Source of the DNA: Agrococcus terreus
GTDB taxonomy: Bacteria; Actinomycetota; Actinomycetes; Actinomycetales; Microbacteriaceae
Length of the DNA stretch: 64,000 nt
NCBI RefSeq assembly: GCF_014645235.1
Contig: NZ_BMLM01000001.1
Coordinates: forward strand, 1,922,001-1,986,000
Reading direction: 5' to 3'
Of this stretch, positions 57,952 through 64,000 are shown piece after piece. The notes below the pieces were generated by a model, which saw only the letters and a program-made list of their open reading frames with translations, was not told where the DNA came from and ran no database searches. How positions within the stretch are numbered: the first letter of the stretch is position 1; the number at the start of each line of letters is the position of its first letter. A program made the translations under genes and the position numbers.

Positions 57952-58166
57952 TGCTCGAGCATGGCGCGGCTGCAGCCCGTCGCGCAACGAGAAGACGGCC
58001 CCCGCCCGCACCATGTGCGGAGCGGAGACCATCTCGTGGTCGACCTTGAGTACCTCTTGTCAAACAATTCAGCGACCCCCGTTACAGCGGACAAGGCTAG
58101 GCAGATCCTGGCAGCGGCGGAGGCCGGTGAAGCGCCGCCAGTAGCGCAGACCAGCCGGACCAGGCC

Positions 58167-58499
58167 GTGGACCCGCGTATCGCCAGACGCCCGGTAGAGG
58201 TCGTCCGCCGCTACTCCAGCGGCGAGACGTCGACGGCCCTGGCCGAAGACTTCAAAGTAGCGAAGTCAACCATCGTCCGGATCTTGCGAGAGAACAGCGT
58301 GGTCGTGCGTCGTCAACCACTGACCGGCAAGCAGGTGACCATGGCGAAGCGTCTCTGCGAATCCGGCCTGTCGCTCTCGGAGGTCGCGGACCAGATGTTC
58401 GTGAACCAGGAGACGATGCGCGTCGCCATCATCGGCGCCGATGTCGAACTGCGGCCGCCGAGCGGTGGGCGAACGGAGCCGAATGGAGAGCCCAAGTGA
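58167..58499 (+). CDS. double helix-turn-helix DNA-binding protein
   Basis: A 110-residue protein with two HTH units: YSSGETSTALAEDFKVAKST (about 16-40) and LCESGLSLSEVADQMFVNQE (about 63-82). This layout resembles the DNA-binding end of serine recombinases and stand-alone HTH proteins often left near integration sites. Start GTG 58167; no strong ribosome site. It meets the convergent DUF2971 gene with no gap. Confidence 0.72.
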   Translation: MDPRIARRPVEVVRRYSSGETSTALAEDFKVAKSTIVRILRENSVVVRRQPLTGKQVTMAKRLCESGLSLSEVADQMFVNQETMRVAIIGADVELRPPSGGRTEPNGEPK

Positions 58500-59435
58500 C
58501 TATCGCAACGGGCTGGTCGACTTCAGGATCGTCACACTGCTGTAGCCATTCGCATCCAGGAGACCGCGGAGCCGAGCGTCCTCGGTCGGGAAGTCGTTCC
58601 GTGGCCCGACGCGGATCGAAACGATCGGGAGGTTGCTTGGCGCTCCTTGGTAGTACTCCGGATCGTGCGCGTCCCAGTCTGTCGAGAACGGATTGACAGC
58701 CGCTCCAGTGATCCGAACGTGAGTATGACCGCCGGACGGATTGGGATGGATCGCAGTCGGATTCTCCGGGCGGGTAACCGCATATCGAACCTCACGCTCG
58801 CGTCGGAAGTCCTTGTGCTTGATCGAGGCAACGGCATCTACGTAGCTACTACTCCCCTGGTCCCGGAAGATCGAGCCGAAGTTGTCGCCGACGTCATGGC
58901 GAGAGTCGATGCGGGCCCCTTCGACCTGGCCCTCCTTGATGTGCCAGATCGCGCGCGTCGCCAGGTCACGCTGCGTCGACTTGTCATAGGCGAGGTCGAG
59001 CCAGCGAAACGGAAACTCCTCGATGTAGGGAGCGCGAGATAGCCCGCCGGAGTGGGTTCCTATGACCGGCAGGTAGACACCTCGCGGGATCGCAACTGCG
59101 AAGCCATCCGCGAGTGCGTACTTCTGCCACTGCTCGGTGTCGTCTGGTTCCGGGCTGAAGCAGGTGACAAACGCGCTGCCATGGAAGAGGTCACCGCCTG
59201 CTCCCTCGAGCGACTCCTTTAACTCGTCGAAGTCGATTTCGGGCGCGGTGTCGTCGTGGTAATCCCACTCGCGCTTCAGCTTCTTGAAGGCCTGGCGAAC
59301 CCTCTTGTTGCCGAGCTTCAGCTCCGTCGCATCGTTGAGCCCTGCGAAGTCTGCAGCCCACAGCTCGTGGTTCGTGATGATCTTCTCGACCACGTCGTGC
59401 TTCGTGTAATGCCAGACGAGATCCGAGGTGCTCAT
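58500..59435 (-). CDS. DUF2971 domain protein
   Basis: A 311-residue protein with the DUF2971 pattern: LVWHYTKHDVVEKII, ELWAADFAGLNDATEL, FVTCFSPEPDDTEQWQKYA, DGFAVAI and KHKDFRREREVRYAV. DUF2971 proteins have unknown function and are frequent in defence and mobile islands; the conserved Y, N-D, W-Y and E-R-E residues suggest an enzyme. TATCCT lies seven bases before ATG 59435, so it is probably leaderless. Stop codon directly abuts the HTH gene stop. Confidence 0.85.
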   Translation of the reverse strand: MSTSDLVWHYTKHDVVEKIITNHELWAADFAGLNDATELKLGNKRVRQAFKKLKREWDYHDDTAPEIDFDELKESLEGAGGDLFHGSAFVTCFSPEPDDTEQWQKYALADGFAVAIPRGVYLPVIGTHSGGLSRAPYIEEFPFRWLDLAYDKSTQRDLATRAIWHIKEGQVEGARIDSRHDVGDNFGSIFRDQGSSSYVDAVASIKHKDFRREREVRYAVTRPENPTAIHPNPSGGHTHVRITGAAVNPFSTDWDAHDPEYYQGAPSNLPIVSIRVGPRNDFPTEDARLRGLLDANGYSSVTILKSTSPLR

Positions 59436-59500
59436 AAGTATCAGGATATCGAGCGCACCTCCGCCAATTGAAGAGCCCGCACATCCGGTAACGATTGGCT

Positions 59501-59888
59501 CTACGACGGAACTTCCCGTCGAGGCTCTTCCGTACCGCGATGACGCGGGCTAGTTCGGCGCGGGGTAGCTGATCTTGTCTGGATCGGCGCTGGTCGTTCA
59601 ACGAGGTGCGCCAGGAGGCGGTCTACTGCTGTCTGCGCCTCTGCGACAGCTTCCCGAGCGCGACCGGCGTATCCGGGTTGCACGATCCTGCCCTCGGCGA
59701 CCTCGTAGATCGCAATACGGATCAGTTCCGCGATGGGCTTCTTCGACGAATGAGATCATGCGGAGCACACTCAGGTCTCGATACCTCACCCTCACCGAGG
59801 TGAGCAACTCGAGCTCGTCATCGTCAGCGCGGTCAGTCACCGAGGGGTCGGTGGGCACGTCGTCGCGCATGCCTGGATTGTCCTTCAT
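59501..59888 (-). pseudogene. small ribbon-helix-helix-like gene with apparent frameshift
   Basis: From ATG 59888 the frame reads DDDELELLTSVRVRYRDLSVLRMIS and then loses protein character; the +1 frame picks up at about 59755 with KKPIAELIRIAIYEVAEG, RIVQPGYAGRAREAV and AQTAVDRLLAHLVE. Joined, they make a plausible 120-residue protein with an RHH-like middle. The break is near GTCGAAGAAG. It could be a pseudogene or a sequencing indel. The flanking 59436-59500 and 59889-60098 show no other gene. Confidence 0.45.
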
Positions 59889-60098
59889 GAGCGTTCCTCT
59901 CAGGACTCCATTCCGGGAGCAAGCGCGACCACCTCATGCAGTTCAGGTAGCCGCTGCGCGCTCAATCGCATGCAGTGGGTGAGCGCGCAGCGGCTTCCTG
60001 GACAACCAACGACGCCGTTTCCGCCGACGTCGTCAGCTGCACATACTGATGCGCTCATCGGCGTGAAATTGCAAGCATGAGCGCAGCGCGCGGCGCAC

Positions 60099-60599
60099 AT
60101 GTGCCTGCTCGGAGGCGGCGGGCGCAGCGAGCTGCTCACTGAGTTGACCCGCGAGTGGATGTCGGATCACCCGAAGCAGCCTTGGTTACTGTTCCTCGCC
60201 GACCGAGCCGACGATTTCCTATCTCTCTGTTGCCTCGAACACGAGCGCACCTGGATCGAGCGCATGTTCGCGAGCCTTAGCGATCACGCCATCTACAACG
60301 CGCTCCTGGCGGAGTGCGCCGCAGAGGGAGCCATTCTCGACGCCCGTCGACGTCGGGCGCGTATCGCGCTCGTTCACGGCAAGCCGGTCGCCGTCGCGGT
60401 AGTGGAGTCGGTTCAGGGATACGCCGAGTTCACCAGCGGTACTGCGCTCTACATCGCGCTGGAGGCGTTCGTCGATGGCACCGACCCGAAAGCTGCTCTC
60501 GCGGAACGGATCGATGAGTTCAACGCTCTGCAGGCTGGGAAGGACGCCGCGACGTATTGGCGTGAGCGCATCGCAGCCGAGGGTTGGCCACTGCCGTAG
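60099..60599 (+). CDS. hypothetical protein
   Basis: A 166-residue soluble protein with no recognised domain. Features: MSDHPKQPWLLFLADRADDF (ATG 60156 region could be the true start), HERTWIERMFASLSDHAIYNALL, and a C-terminal TSGTALYIALEAFVDG followed by ALAERIDEFNALQAG. Codon use is island-like. No ribosome site at either candidate start. Confidence 0.55.
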   Translation: MCLLGGGGRSELLTELTREWMSDHPKQPWLLFLADRADDFLSLCCLEHERTWIERMFASLSDHAIYNALLAECAAEGAILDARRRRARIALVHGKPVAVAVVESVQGYAEFTSGTALYIALEAFVDGTDPKAALAERIDEFNALQAGKDAATYWRERIAAEGWPLP

Positions 60600-60646
60600 C
60601 CGGTCGGTGCCGGTGCGATGTCAGAACCCACTGTCAATCTGAGAGG

Positions 60647-61387
60647 GTGACTGAGCTTGCTTACATGGTGCGCGAAGACTGGGGACAGCACGGCACCGCG
60701 ATGATTCCGCAGAGCGCCGTAATCCGAGACTGGATCGGCGATCCGCCGTACCTCTTTGCGGTCACGGATGTGAAGAAGTTCGATCACGACGACCGCGGCG
60801 CAGACGTCGAAGCCGCGCAGTTCATCGCACCCGAGGAGCCCGATCGGATCGTCTTCAACATCCGAGAACTCGGCGGCCTAGAACGCGACGATAAGGTCGT
60901 CGACCACGCGGTCGTCGTCCTGCATCCGTTCGGGCAGCACGAGCTTGAGACGATTCGCCGTGCGGTCGAGGCCGATTCAATCGGCAAGCTCTTCGTCCTG
61001 ATCTGGTCCCCCTACGACACGGTGCGCACCTGGCTCGACGGCCTCGGGGCGCTCAACCTCCACACCCGAGAAGCCGTCCCGGCCAGCGACCCGCTTCTGC
61101 TCGCAGCCGCCGAAATGATTCAAAACGAGGACTACAACGGTCTGGGCTCGGGACGCGGTAAAGACGCCGTGGTGCAGCTCGTCCGCGCATTCGCCGCCGA
61201 GGGGTATCCCGTCGCGCCGGATACCTGGCTGCGCGCCTACTTCGCGGTCGGCGGCAGCTTTCACCACGCCGAGTCGATCGAGAAGCTGGTCAAGGAGATG
61301 AAGGCGGGGACGCGCCACCGCGTGAAGCCGCGTTACCGCGACAACATCGTCGAGATCATGCGCGAGCAGCTCGCCGCGAAAAACTAG
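60647..61387 (+). CDS. hypothetical protein upstream of GIY-YIG gene
   Basis: A 246-residue protein with no family I can name. It has VVDHAVVVLHPFGQHELETI, GKLFVLIWSPYDTVRTWLDG, a helical SGRGKDAVVQLVRAFAAEGY and a basic C-terminus (RHRVKPRYRDNIVEI). GTG 60647 follows CAATCT by six bases, consistent with a leaderless start. Its TAG stop is in the same frame as the GIY-YIG gene that follows, with no intervening stop. Confidence 0.65.
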   Translation: MTELAYMVREDWGQHGTAMIPQSAVIRDWIGDPPYLFAVTDVKKFDHDDRGADVEAAQFIAPEEPDRIVFNIRELGGLERDDKVVDHAVVVLHPFGQHELETIRRAVEADSIGKLFVLIWSPYDTVRTWLDGLGALNLHTREAVPASDPLLLAAAEMIQNEDYNGLGSGRGKDAVVQLVRAFAAEGYPVAPDTWLRAYFAVGGSFHHAESIEKLVKEMKAGTRHRVKPRYRDNIVEIMREQLAAKN

Positions 61388-61510
61388 ACGAGCCTGACCA
61401 CGAGTGCGCGCGAAAGACGGCACGATCGACTCCTGGCTCTGACTCTCGGCCCGCTCCTCATCGACGCCGGTATCGACCCCACACAGGCGCTCGTCATCCG
61501 CCACGCCTTC

Positions 61511-62245
61511 GTGACCGAGCCGGAAGAGAGCGGGCTGCAGGGACTGCACGCGGACTCCACCGACGCCGAGATCATGTCCTATACGGCGACACAATCCTCG
61601 GACACGAGACGGTTCCCTGCGGCGCCGCCGCGATTCTGGGTGGTGTTCATCAAGGAGGGCGGAGACCAGGCGCGGTTCTGGTCTGTGGTGGAGAACCGCG
61701 GCCAGATCGCTTACGACGACATCCGGCGTGCCTTCGACGTCGTCGAGTCCGATCACATGGCCGACCTTCGCAAGCAGCTCGTGATTGGGTGGAAGTCGCC
61801 ACGAACCTGGCGGATGAACGCCAGCACGGCGGCGAGCTATCCGGTGATCGGCATTGCAGACGCCGAGCCGATTGCGTTCCCCGGCTTCGATCGCCTCGTC
61901 CTAAGCCATGTCCAGCTACAGGCGGTGATGCGCGAGCATCGCTACGCCTCGTGGCGTACCGCGCTCTCCTCGGTGGTCGGGATCTGCCTAATCACCGACA
62001 CATCCGACGGCAGGCACTATGTCGGCAAGGCCGACGGCGCCGAGAGTGTTCGACAGCGCTGGAACGCCTACGCGACCAACGGGCACGGCGGCAACGTCGA
62101 GCTTCGTCGCGTCGACCCCAAGAACTTCCGGTTCTCGCTACTCCAAGTCTTCGATCCATCCACGCCGACGCGAGACCTCGACGCGGCCGAGGGCCACTTC
62201 AAGGACGCGCTCGACAGCCGCCGTGACGGGCTGAATCGGAATTGA
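61511..62245 (+). CDS. GIY-YIG nuclease-domain protein
   Basis: At least 244 residues. The C-terminal GIY-YIG domain (about 155-244) reads GICLITDTSDGRHYVGKADG, VRQRWNAYATNGHGGN (catalytic Arg) and ends with AEGHFKDALDSRRDGLNRN, which supplies the Glu and Asn. The N-terminal part has FPAAPPRFWVVFIKEGG and KSPRTWRMNA. Protein-like sequence (LTLGPLLIDAGIDP) continues upstream of GTG 61511 to about 61433, where only CTG codons could start. Convergent with the ATPase-nuclease gene 21 bases away. Confidence 0.82.
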   Translation: MTEPEESGLQGLHADSTDAEIMSYTATQSSDTRRFPAAPPRFWVVFIKEGGDQARFWSVVENRGQIAYDDIRRAFDVVESDHMADLRKQLVIGWKSPRTWRMNASTAASYPVIGIADAEPIAFPGFDRLVLSHVQLQAVMREHRYASWRTALSSVVGICLITDTSDGRHYVGKADGAESVRQRWNAYATNGHGGNVELRRVDPKNFRFSLLQVFDPSTPTRDLDAAEGHFKDALDSRRDGLNRN

Positions 62246-62266
62246 GCCCGGATTCGCCTCTCTCTA

Positions 62267-64000
62267 CTATGCGGTGTTGCCGGGCTCGTCCTCGGTGGCC
62301 AGACCTTCCGGAATCATCTCGGCATACTGCTCCCGAATGAAGGCCAAGCCCTCGGCGAGTGACGGGTCGAACTCGAGCGAGTTCGTCACGAACTCCAAGC
62401 GACGCTTGTTCTCGTCGATGATGTCCCGCCAACGTCGCACGTAGGCGCGAACCGCTGGACGCCCCGGCTTCTTGTCGGGCTCAAACACCAACCCAAGTTC
62501 TCGGTCGGATCCGATGATCGAGTTGTCCATGACCCCGTCGTAGTCCGTGACGACAAGGATGAATTCCCACACGGAGCGATCGCTCGCAAACGCTGCGTTG
62601 TCGACGACGACATTGATGTAGTCCTCGATCTGGTTGCGCTCAACGCGGCCTGCGGTGATGTCAGGTGCCTTCAGCTCGACCACGAGGTGGCGGATCCGGT
62701 CGTGCTCCTTCGCCTTCACTGCGAGATGGAGATCGATGCGGCCCGTCTTGCCGTCCCAGCGCTTGACCGGCTCAACCTTGCCGTCCGGGAGCCCTTCGAG
62801 CTTGAGGTGGGTACGCAGCATCTGCGTCAGCCCTCGCTCGCTGTTCATGAAGTGGTACTCCTCGCCAAAGATCCAGAGCTCGTGCTCCAGGAACTTGTGG
62901 AGGTGGTCGCGTTCGCCGACCTTCTTCGAGTCCTCGGGATCGAACAGCAAGTGCTCAAGGCCGGCGAGGAACTTGCTGCGGCTAGTGACGAGGTTGGCGC
63001 TTCGGATCACACCCGCGAGCGACGTCTCGCTCAGCAGCTTGGTAAGCGCCTTTCGGTCCTGCTCGCTGAGGGCCACGAACTCGCTGACGAGGACCGCCAG
63101 GTTCTCGGGATCGGTCTTCAACGCATCGCGCAACAGGTTGAGGGTGAGTTGCGCCCCGTCCTTGCGCTTCGGAATCTGGGGTACCAGCGCACTCGACACG
63201 ATGTCGAAGACGGCGCGCTCCGCCTTGTCGGCCTCGGTCGCAGGCTCATCCTTGTAGGGATAGATGCCCTTGTTCTTCCACTCGTCGATCTGGTCTCGTC
63301 GACGAGCGCGACGACGCGCGGCGAAGTGGTCTTTCACCGCCGTTCGAGTCGCGCGCCAGACCGCACCGGCCGGGTCGGGAGCCATGTCGCCAAGACCGAG
63401 GTCGGCGAGCGATTCCGTGTCGAAACCGGGCCAGGTGACATAAGCCGAGTACGCCGCCTGCGCTTCGATCTCCGATCCGGAGGCCTCCACCACGAACCTC
63501 TCGGCGTCCTCGCCGAAGTAGATCGCTCGGTGCTTGCCGGTGCGCCATTCAATGATGCGGATCGACACGACAGCATCACTGTCGCTGTCGAGCACCGCGG
63601 TCACGGTCGTGTCGTCGAGGATCTCGTCGGCGGGGTCCAGCTTGGCGCCATCGACGATGACGGTGAGGGAGTCATCGTTGAGCAGGACAGGCGCGAAGTG
63701 CGAGGTGAGCACCGTCAGCGTCGAGTCGCTGATGAGCGAATTCAGGCTGCGGTCCTGCTCGTTCAGCGCGGTGACGATCGTGCCCGTAGTGGTGGCGGCT
63801 GACGGCTGGGCGTCCCAGCTGAATGGCTCTGCGCGTTCCTTCGCACCCTCGATGACCACGCGCTCACGTTCGCCCGCGGTGTTGACGCTTTCGCTCGCCC
63901 ACGTCACGCGGGATCCAAGCGCGAACGCACGAAGACGGCCTTCACCGAGCTTGCCGTGGAGTCCGCGCTTATCGTTCTTCGACCGTGCAGCGAGTGCCTT
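62267..64000 (-). CDS. GHKL ATPase fused to PD-(D/E)XK nuclease-like domain (N-terminus beyond window)
   Basis: At least 577 residues, open to the right edge. The edge reads KNDKRGLHGKLGEGRLRAFA, matching the G-rich ATP lid of Hsp90/MORC-type GHKL ATPases (HATPase_c_3). A linker with ARRRARRRDQIDEWKNKG follows. The C-terminal third has LEHELWIFGEEYHFM, then GRIDLHLAV (Asp codon 62732-62734) and HLVVELKAP (Glu and Lys codons at 62675 and 62669), the D...ExK pattern of PD-(D/E)XK nucleases as in Shedu/DUF4263 proteins. GTG 63907 is internal. Likely a defence effector; this is inference. Confidence 0.82.
   Translation of the reverse strand, partial: KALAARSKNDKRGLHGKLGEGRLRAFALGSRVTWASESVNTAGERERVVIEGAKERAEPFSWDAQPSAATTTGTIVTALNEQDRSLNSLISDSTLTVLTSHFAPVLLNDDSLTVIVDGAKLDPADEILDDTTVTAVLDSDSDAVVSIRIIEWRTGKHRAIYFGEDAERFVVEASGSEIEAQAAYSAYVTWPGFDTESLADLGLGDMAPDPAGAVWRATRTAVKDHFAARRRARRRDQIDEWKNKGIYPYKDEPATEADKAERAVFDIVSSALVPQIPKRKDGAQLTLNLLRDALKTDPENLAVLVSEFVALSEQDRKALTKLLSETSLAGVIRSANLVTSRSKFLAGLEHLLFDPEDSKKVGERDHLHKFLEHELWIFGEEYHFMNSERGLTQMLRTHLKLEGLPDGKVEPVKRWDGKTGRIDLHLAVKAKEHDRIRHLVVELKAPDITAGRVERNQIEDYINVVVDNAAFASDRSVWEFILVVTDYDGVMDNSIIGSDRELGLVFEPDKKPGRPAVRAYVRRWRDIIDENKRRLEFVTNSLEFDPSLAEGLAFIREQYAEMIPEGLATEDEPGNTA

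Follow-up and report, generated by a model that had tools for sequence, protein, structure and literature searches.

A single-chain GHKL ATPase and Shedu-like nuclease in a low-GC island of Agrococcus terreus, a divergent member of a known and probably anti-phage kind

Proteins in which a GHKL ATPase precedes a Shedu-like nuclease are already known, their layout having been described in 2008 and tested against phages in 2025. In the available part of their survey, Iyer et al. (2008; PMC2292703) reported under the name of paraMORC3 single chains made of a GHKL domain and a C-terminal E-D-ExK nuclease, which are prevalent in proteobacteria and bacteroidetes, of which a subset stands alone, and whose sporadic distribution was read as lateral mobility. 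Their GHKL domain is followed by an S5 domain, which bears the motif GhXhhpXXRhl in strict MORC proteins. VcSduA of Vibrio cholerae was presented as Shedu type I-D, with an N-terminal GHKL domain and a C-terminal DUF4263-type PD-(D/E)XK nuclease (PMC12137116, 2025). According to the accessible portion of that article, VcSduA acts as a single gene, the mutations E27A and K557A each abolished its anti-phage activity, and cultures were protected at all tested multiplicities of infection (MOIs), the authors favoring direct phage restriction with a viable host. Restriction enzymes of the BbrUII/HgiDII type also share this layout; M.HgiDII is given, in the part of the source at hand, as a 5mC methyltransferase for GTCGAC (PMC5867850). 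The initial annotation of the locus reported here had regarded the single-chain combination as no standard named system, an opinion that the existence of paraMORC3, VcSduA and BbrUII/HgiDII contradicts. A Shedu-like nuclease, an architecture with tested anti-phage activity (VcSduA) and the BbrUII/HgiDII restriction enzymes are connected by one scaffold, and the divergence of a modification-guarded restriction enzyme from a methyltransferase-free defence nuclease becomes a testable question, along with the nature of the self mark that takes over from methylation.

The window analysed here is a stretch of 64,000 nucleotides from the genome of A. terreus (G000:C1:1922001-1986000, G000 being the window genome), at the end of which a minus-strand frame (62267..64000) remains open. 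The motifs HGKLGEGR and GRID...VVELK, which had been noticed at first reading, are both present in this frame, and extension of the contig to the start of the gene, as then advised, required only the adjoining 270 bases. The completed gene (62267..64270 in window numbering, continued beyond the window; L002:6267-8270) starts with an ATG at 64270 and encodes an intact protein of 667 aa with no internal stop. A chance open frame is ruled out by this intact gene and by 10 related loci with 58-96% identity, one of which (L008) is split. As read from its domains and motifs, the single protein joins an N-terminal GHKL ATPase to a C-terminal Shedu-like PD-(D/E)XK nuclease.

The GHKL (Bergerat) ATPase domain, initially proposed from the ATP-lid motif, was confirmed at residues 33-132 (63875-64174, minus strand, 63875..64000 lying inside the window) by a match to PF13589 with E=1.9e-15 and 57.5 bits (cut-off 25), and PF02518 matched the 667-aa protein with 29.6 bits (cut-off 26.4). 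Bergerat-fold motifs I-III are recognized as E37/N41/D44, D69-x-G-x-G and H105-G-x-x-G-x-G-R, which are invariant in 31/31 sequences of an alignment of intact relatives (16 cellular ones and 15 of the 22 viral-contig loci). Motifs and above-threshold Pfam score together place the protein among the GHKL ATPases. Its best-scoring solved relative by sequence is MutL (9n2k, E=3.4e-7).

The nuclease half (residues 426-660; 62291..62995, minus strand) exhibits no Pfam match above any cut-off, the one hit, to DUF7059 (0.049), being at chance level, and its assignment thus rests on conservation and profile comparison. Residues E453, E470, D513, E532 and K534 are invariant in the 31 aligned intact relatives, and E37 is kept along with D513, E532 and K534 (codons 62732-62734, 62675-62677 and 62669-62671, respectively, on the minus strand) in all 45 full-length relatives, namely these 31 and 14 plasmid proteins. 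When the profile of residues 426-660 was compared by hhalign with 15 SduA_C domains, a score of 95.6% was obtained (E=1.2e-8, hhalign E-values being those of single comparisons), with the catalytic D and ExK of both families in register. The six control comparisons all reached 29% or less: the nuclease domain against HSDR_N_2 (7.4%) and VRR_NUC (3.7%), and SduA_C against HSDR_N_2 (0.6%), VRR_NUC (28.9%) and the protein's own GHKL (0.07%) and middle (0.17%) regions. The value of 28.9% indicates that not every other PD-(D/E)XK family scores close to zero, and the controls are limited by the small HSDR_N_2 and VRR_NUC profiles, of 3 sequences each (for the former, 7 of 12 loci were tried and 4 had no usable ORF; for the latter, all loci found were used). 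For the SduA_C profile of 15 sequences, 16 of 18 loci were tried, L066 having no usable ORF and L068 and L069 being left out. HSDR_N_2 and VRR_NUC as identities of the nuclease are disfavored since profile comparison prefers SduA_C; single-sequence matches to them are weak and were seen in 13/16 members (best 0.004) and 3/16 members (best 0.0072), respectively.

The Shedu-like label proposed at first sight thus holds as profile homology to SduA_C in which the catalytic D and ExK residues align, and does not hold as a direct match: none of the 16 members matched PF14082 (SduA_C/DUF4263) at E<=1, short of the curated Shedu cut-off, and the PADLOC SduA score of the 667-aa protein was 11.7 bits (E=0.025). 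Since no member reaches PF14082, we consider the nuclease as a divergent Shedu-domain relative and do not file it as canonical Shedu. Canonical SduA shares with the window protein a nuclease related by profile comparison, whereas the N-terminal half of the window protein is a GHKL ATPase. With paraMORC3, the window protein shares both the N-terminal GHKL domain and the C-terminal E-D-ExK nuclease; however, its clade is actinobacterial, and the S5 domain expected after GHKL is only a candidate in its sequence. Kinship to VcSduA is one of architecture only, the two single-chain proteins having been compared through the published description (available part of PMC12137116). The motif I Glu and the nuclease Lys of VcSduA type are found as E37 and K534 in 45/45 sequences, the spacing between the mutated residues being 530 in VcSduA and 497 between their counterparts in the window protein, a difference that does not decide where VcSduA is to be placed.

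The Shedu model, run on 296 phylum genomes, also recovered L069, where a GHKL protein matches SduA_C marginally and is adjoined by an ORF whose motifs we interpret as those of a cytosine methyltransferase. Together with seven plasmid relatives (L103-L109) fetched out of 44 records found, this locus constitutes an HgiDII-like group, in which a neighboring cytosine methyltransferase occurs at 7/8 loci (annotated at six of the seven plasmid ones and lacking at L105). The cut-off of NF050001, the NCBIfam model of BbrUII/HgiDII restriction enzymes, was passed by four of the seven loci tested (L105 being left out), and the other three match this model over nearly its full length with 264-315 bits. 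Own SduA_C matches of the group are weak (2/7 at E<0.001, both below the cut-off); as a profile, the group reached 97.7% against SduA_C (E=1.7e-12). Enzymes of the BbrUII/HgiDII type themselves look like chains of a GHKL ATPase and an SduA_C-like nuclease. The family of the window protein could be aligned with the HgiDII-like group over 543 columns (99.9%, E=6e-33) and is, by this profile alignment, homologous along most of its chain to BbrUII/HgiDII-type enzymes. In a tree rooted on the HgiDII-like group, the family forms one clade (support 0.853), and its 11 close relatives group together with a support of 1.0.

Given this homology, and an N-terminal NF050001 match of the window protein (E=3e-13), the protein might be a sequence-specific restriction endonuclease similar to HgiDII, whose protecting methyltransferase would lie elsewhere or be a solitary enzyme of the host. 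Some plasmid relatives point in this direction, as the copy of a Phaeobacter plasmid overlaps a type ISP restriction-modification (R-M) gene by 4 nt and, on a Streptomyces plasmid, an N-6 methylase gene precedes the copy by ~1 kb; moreover, an ORF upstream of the L015 relative presents, when read by eye, an NPPF motif as in N-6 methylases. We nevertheless regard such a restriction enzyme as quite unlikely, because the NF050001 match covers residues 35-147 only with 49.2 bits, compared to a cut-off of 550, and because a scan of 9 island proteins gave no methyltransferase domain, hence no adjacent 5mC methyltransferase, in contrast to the 7/8 HgiDII-like loci. Similarly, the sole cytosine methyltransferase annotated around the 14 plasmid copies belongs to an R-M set on a Psychrobacter plasmid, and a specific enzyme devoid of a co-travelling modification enzyme would presumably harm new hosts.

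The low-GC island suspected from the window was delimited at 58043..66877 (58043..64000 inside the window). Over these 8.8 kb, GC amounts to 0.59-0.66 per 500 bases vs. 0.70-0.80 alongside (~58.0 to 67.0 kb), and the island ends at the 3' end of a tRNA-Pro(GGG) gene (66878-66953, minus strand). In the congeneric genome G702 (L141), both flanks meet at the 3' end of this tRNA with an overlap of ~5 nt, thus forming an empty site, whereas the same flanks are 8.8 kb apart in G000 (L002:2042 and 10878); a second difference of ~600 nt is located just outside the island. Among the four congeneric genomes compared, the left side is shown by G702 only, and G700, G512 and G699 share the tRNA side alone and thus give evidence of neither an empty site nor an identical island. 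At the far end of the island, no direct repeat of at least 16 nt corresponding to the tRNA 3' end was found (one partial match, D11, falls in the 5' part of the tRNA), and the borders are instead set by the empty site of G702. The scan of island proteins revealed no integrase.

The neighbor announced as a GIY-YIG protein (61511..62245, plus strand) is a homologue of UzuA, of the Uzume system, with a GIY-YIG motif (PADLOC PDLC03973, E=2.2e-80), and its gene is convergent, tail to tail, with the GHKL gene at a distance of 21 nt. Its GIY-YIG Pfam score of 17.2 bits is below the cut-off of 22.6, which the L009 orthologue passes with 23.3 bits. The protein is 26 aa shorter than its 270-aa orthologues in L009, L004 and L006, as a result of start codon choice or of true truncation. 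The recurrent association that had been anticipated with GIY-YIG and DUF2971 genes is recovered for the former, in close relatives only, since UzuA and the GHKL nuclease are paired in 4/8 close loci (G000, L009, L004 and L006, among G000, L004-L009 and L013). The DUF2971 label of the gene at 58500..59435 (minus strand, 311 aa) is weak, as PF11185 scored 14.6 bits for a cut-off of 22, and this gene was rejected as a partner for want of recurrence: searched by blastp against the ORFs of a set of retrieved loci, its product matched only an ORF beside the Shedu gene in L030 (25% identity, E=6e-10). The left end of the island is occupied by a helix-turn-helix gene (58167-58499, 110 aa, resolvase-type HTH PF02796), whose product has a sub-threshold similarity to the CRISPR-repeat binding protein Cbp1. 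A second GIY-YIG gene (GIY_YIG_2; PF20815, E=1.3e-28) lies beyond the window near the tRNA end (65723-66277, plus strand; L002:9723-10277). Elsewhere in the window genome, a second UzuA-like ORF, 33% identical, was observed near a PF13588 protein (L074:2477-3202, near G000:C1:320763).

At E<=1e-10, the window protein has matches in 11/299 genomes of the family and 4/396 genomes of the phylum (the window genome being part of both); among the matches counted are some limited to the GHKL domain (L017, L027), a pair covering the C-terminus (G685) and genes that are split. The GHKL nuclease gene is missing from all 5 other congeneric genomes sampled with the family. Relatives of ~30% identity were retrieved from 48 plasmid records at E<=1e-5 (with a query coverage of 80% or more in 35 of them) and from two Pasteurella phage records, and viral contigs yielded 22 loci by alignment search and none by single-protein search. 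Judged by this distribution, the gene is mobile and patchily distributed. Split or interrupted relatives (L008, L021/L028, L022, L026/L029) were also observed, as expected of dispensable cargo. Such patchiness, the absence from 5/5 other congeneric genomes, the island with UzuA and its empty site elsewhere, and the Shedu-like profile of the nuclease all make it highly improbable that the protein is an accessory of DNA repair or mismatch repair, i.e. a GHKL protein of MutL type that has a nuclease of its own and travels on mobile elements, even though the ATPase has MutL as its top-scoring relative of solved structure and Iyer et al. (2008; PMC2292703) raised recruitment to repair for those versions that lie outside R-M contexts.

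The surroundings of 14 annotated plasmid copies were inspected over flanks of 6 kb for two and 4 kb for twelve, in plasmid gene tables that are incomplete; a nuclease fragment on a Curtobacterium plasmid (H34) was excluded for being incomplete. R-M or defence genes are annotated near 4/14 copies: in addition to the Phaeobacter and Streptomyces copies cited above, one is near an abortive-infection gene and that of Psychrobacter is near Drt2 and a dcm/LlaMI set. The other ten have no annotated R-M or defence neighbor within 4 kb, three of them being close to a helicase gene and two to a toxin-antitoxin gene. The GHKL nuclease gene is often a stand-alone cargo gene.

Such a protein very probably serves anti-phage defence of an already described kind. 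More precisely, we estimate at about 0.75 the probability that it belongs to the VcSduA or paraMORC3 kind, as an ATP-gated anti-phage DNA nuclease free of any methyltransferase. This reading is based on its domains and motifs, its SduA_C kinship, the conserved residues and the HgiDII-type homology, on the functional precedent of VcSduA with equal layout, on the mobility of the gene and the empty site of its island, and on its defence company (UzuA, the 4/14 plasmid copies and a head resembling that of RosmerTA in L114, see below); the lack of any PF14082 match at E<=1, the VRR_NUC control value of 28.9%, the purely architectural kinship to VcSduA and the 10/14 plasmid copies free of annotated defence neighbors were counted against it. 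In the mechanism that we infer, including its clamp, its substrate, its trigger and the part given to a beta-flower protein, ATP binding would close two GHKL heads into a dimer clamp via the middle domain, the clamp would admit DNA or a trigger produced by the phage, and its closure or ATP hydrolysis would license the C-terminal Shedu-like domains to cut the DNA taken up, methylation not serving as the self mark. A small beta-flower gene located ahead of the GHKL gene in the close clade may sense or regulate. The enzyme could also work by abortive infection and, once triggered, degrade host and phage DNA and thereby kill or arrest the cell, as no modification mark is known here to spare host DNA, and as Uzume, the system of the neighboring UzuA, is likewise listed among those without known mechanism (available part of PMC10482375). 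Such an outcome appears rather unlikely in view of VcSduA, the nearest tested layout, whose cultures were protected at every MOI tested, a result read by its authors as restriction of the phage with a viable host (PMC12137116).

The beta-flower-like gene (64286-64564, minus strand; L002:8286-8564) could not be seen at first because it lies outside the window. It encodes 92 aa from a GTG start, a spacing of 15 nt separates its stop from the ATG of the GHKL gene, which follows in the same orientation, and both genes are probably co-transcribed. Its assignment to PF21784 (4-fold beta-flower) is weak, the L009 orthologue reaching E=0.0039 and 18 bits for a cut-off of 25, and an annotated relative in Methylocystis is named as a 4-fold beta-flower protein. 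The beta-flower fold was described in 2023 and its families share one Pfam clan with Tubby C-terminal domains (PMC10584680, available part). With equal spacing, the gene is present in 6/8 close loci, being absent from L007 and from L008, where the nuclease gene is split, and it was not found in L010-L012 or L020 (the latter with a flank of 1.5 kb only). Its pN/pS of 0.05-0.29 in 15/15 pairs denotes purifying selection. No beta-flower gene is mentioned for VcSduA in the available part of PMC12137116.

Beside the beta-flower gene, a divergent gene labelled as zinc-ribbon-like from its cysteine pairs, with no family match, keeps a continuous reading frame in L009 and L005 and is altered in L006, reduced to a remnant of 26 residues in L004 and broken in G000 (L002:8609-9154, 600-1150 bases past the right edge of the window), where the protein matches in pieces in different frames. 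It was not found in L013 and exists without a beta-flower gene in L008. Full-length beta-flower homologues were detected at E<1e-20 in 7/299 family genomes, three of which have the GHKL gene (G000, G527, G670) and four no GHKL match. Three of these four (L114-L116) present the adjoining zinc-ribbon-like gene; it is not beside the homologue in L113, which is followed by a recombinase gene. In L114 (G583), this head is followed by RosmerTA (PADLOC RmrT 2.2e-48, RmrA 2.8e-86), L114 being the only one of the RosmerTA-like head loci submitted to PADLOC. ORFs closely similar to the RosmerTA of L114 follow in L116 (G542), where the beta-flower gene has an internal stop, and L117 (G576) exhibits the layout of L114 with a partial beta-flower gene. 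A Mycobacterium plasmid copy of the beta-flower gene does not adjoin a GHKL gene either, and this copy and the 4/7 homologues without GHKL indicate that the beta-flower gene is not exclusive to the GHKL nuclease. No beta-flower relatives were found in viral contigs.

We tentatively propose, as a possibility and little more, that beta-flower and GHKL genes form a two-gene unit in which the beta-flower protein would be a dedicated sensor or regulator, the head being an exchangeable control module placed before the GHKL nuclease or RosmerTA in Microbacteriaceae. Uzume, as island neighbor, and RosmerTA, as user of a similar head, are separate systems. The pairing of beta-flower with GHKL-Shedu or RosmerTA was not found in open-licence papers, which is weak evidence given this scope and queries that did not name the pairing; the beta-flower gene upstream of a GHKL nuclease is possibly new. 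The window protein represents a divergent form of an established kind; it is the head module that deserves further attention. If the head is a shared control, it would give the beta-flower fold a functional setting and provide a sequence handle for finding more payloads. In the Leucobacter relative, a helicase gene lies upstream on the opposite strand (L007:5080-7611) and corresponds to the PADLOC candidate PDC-S28 (E=1.4e-270).
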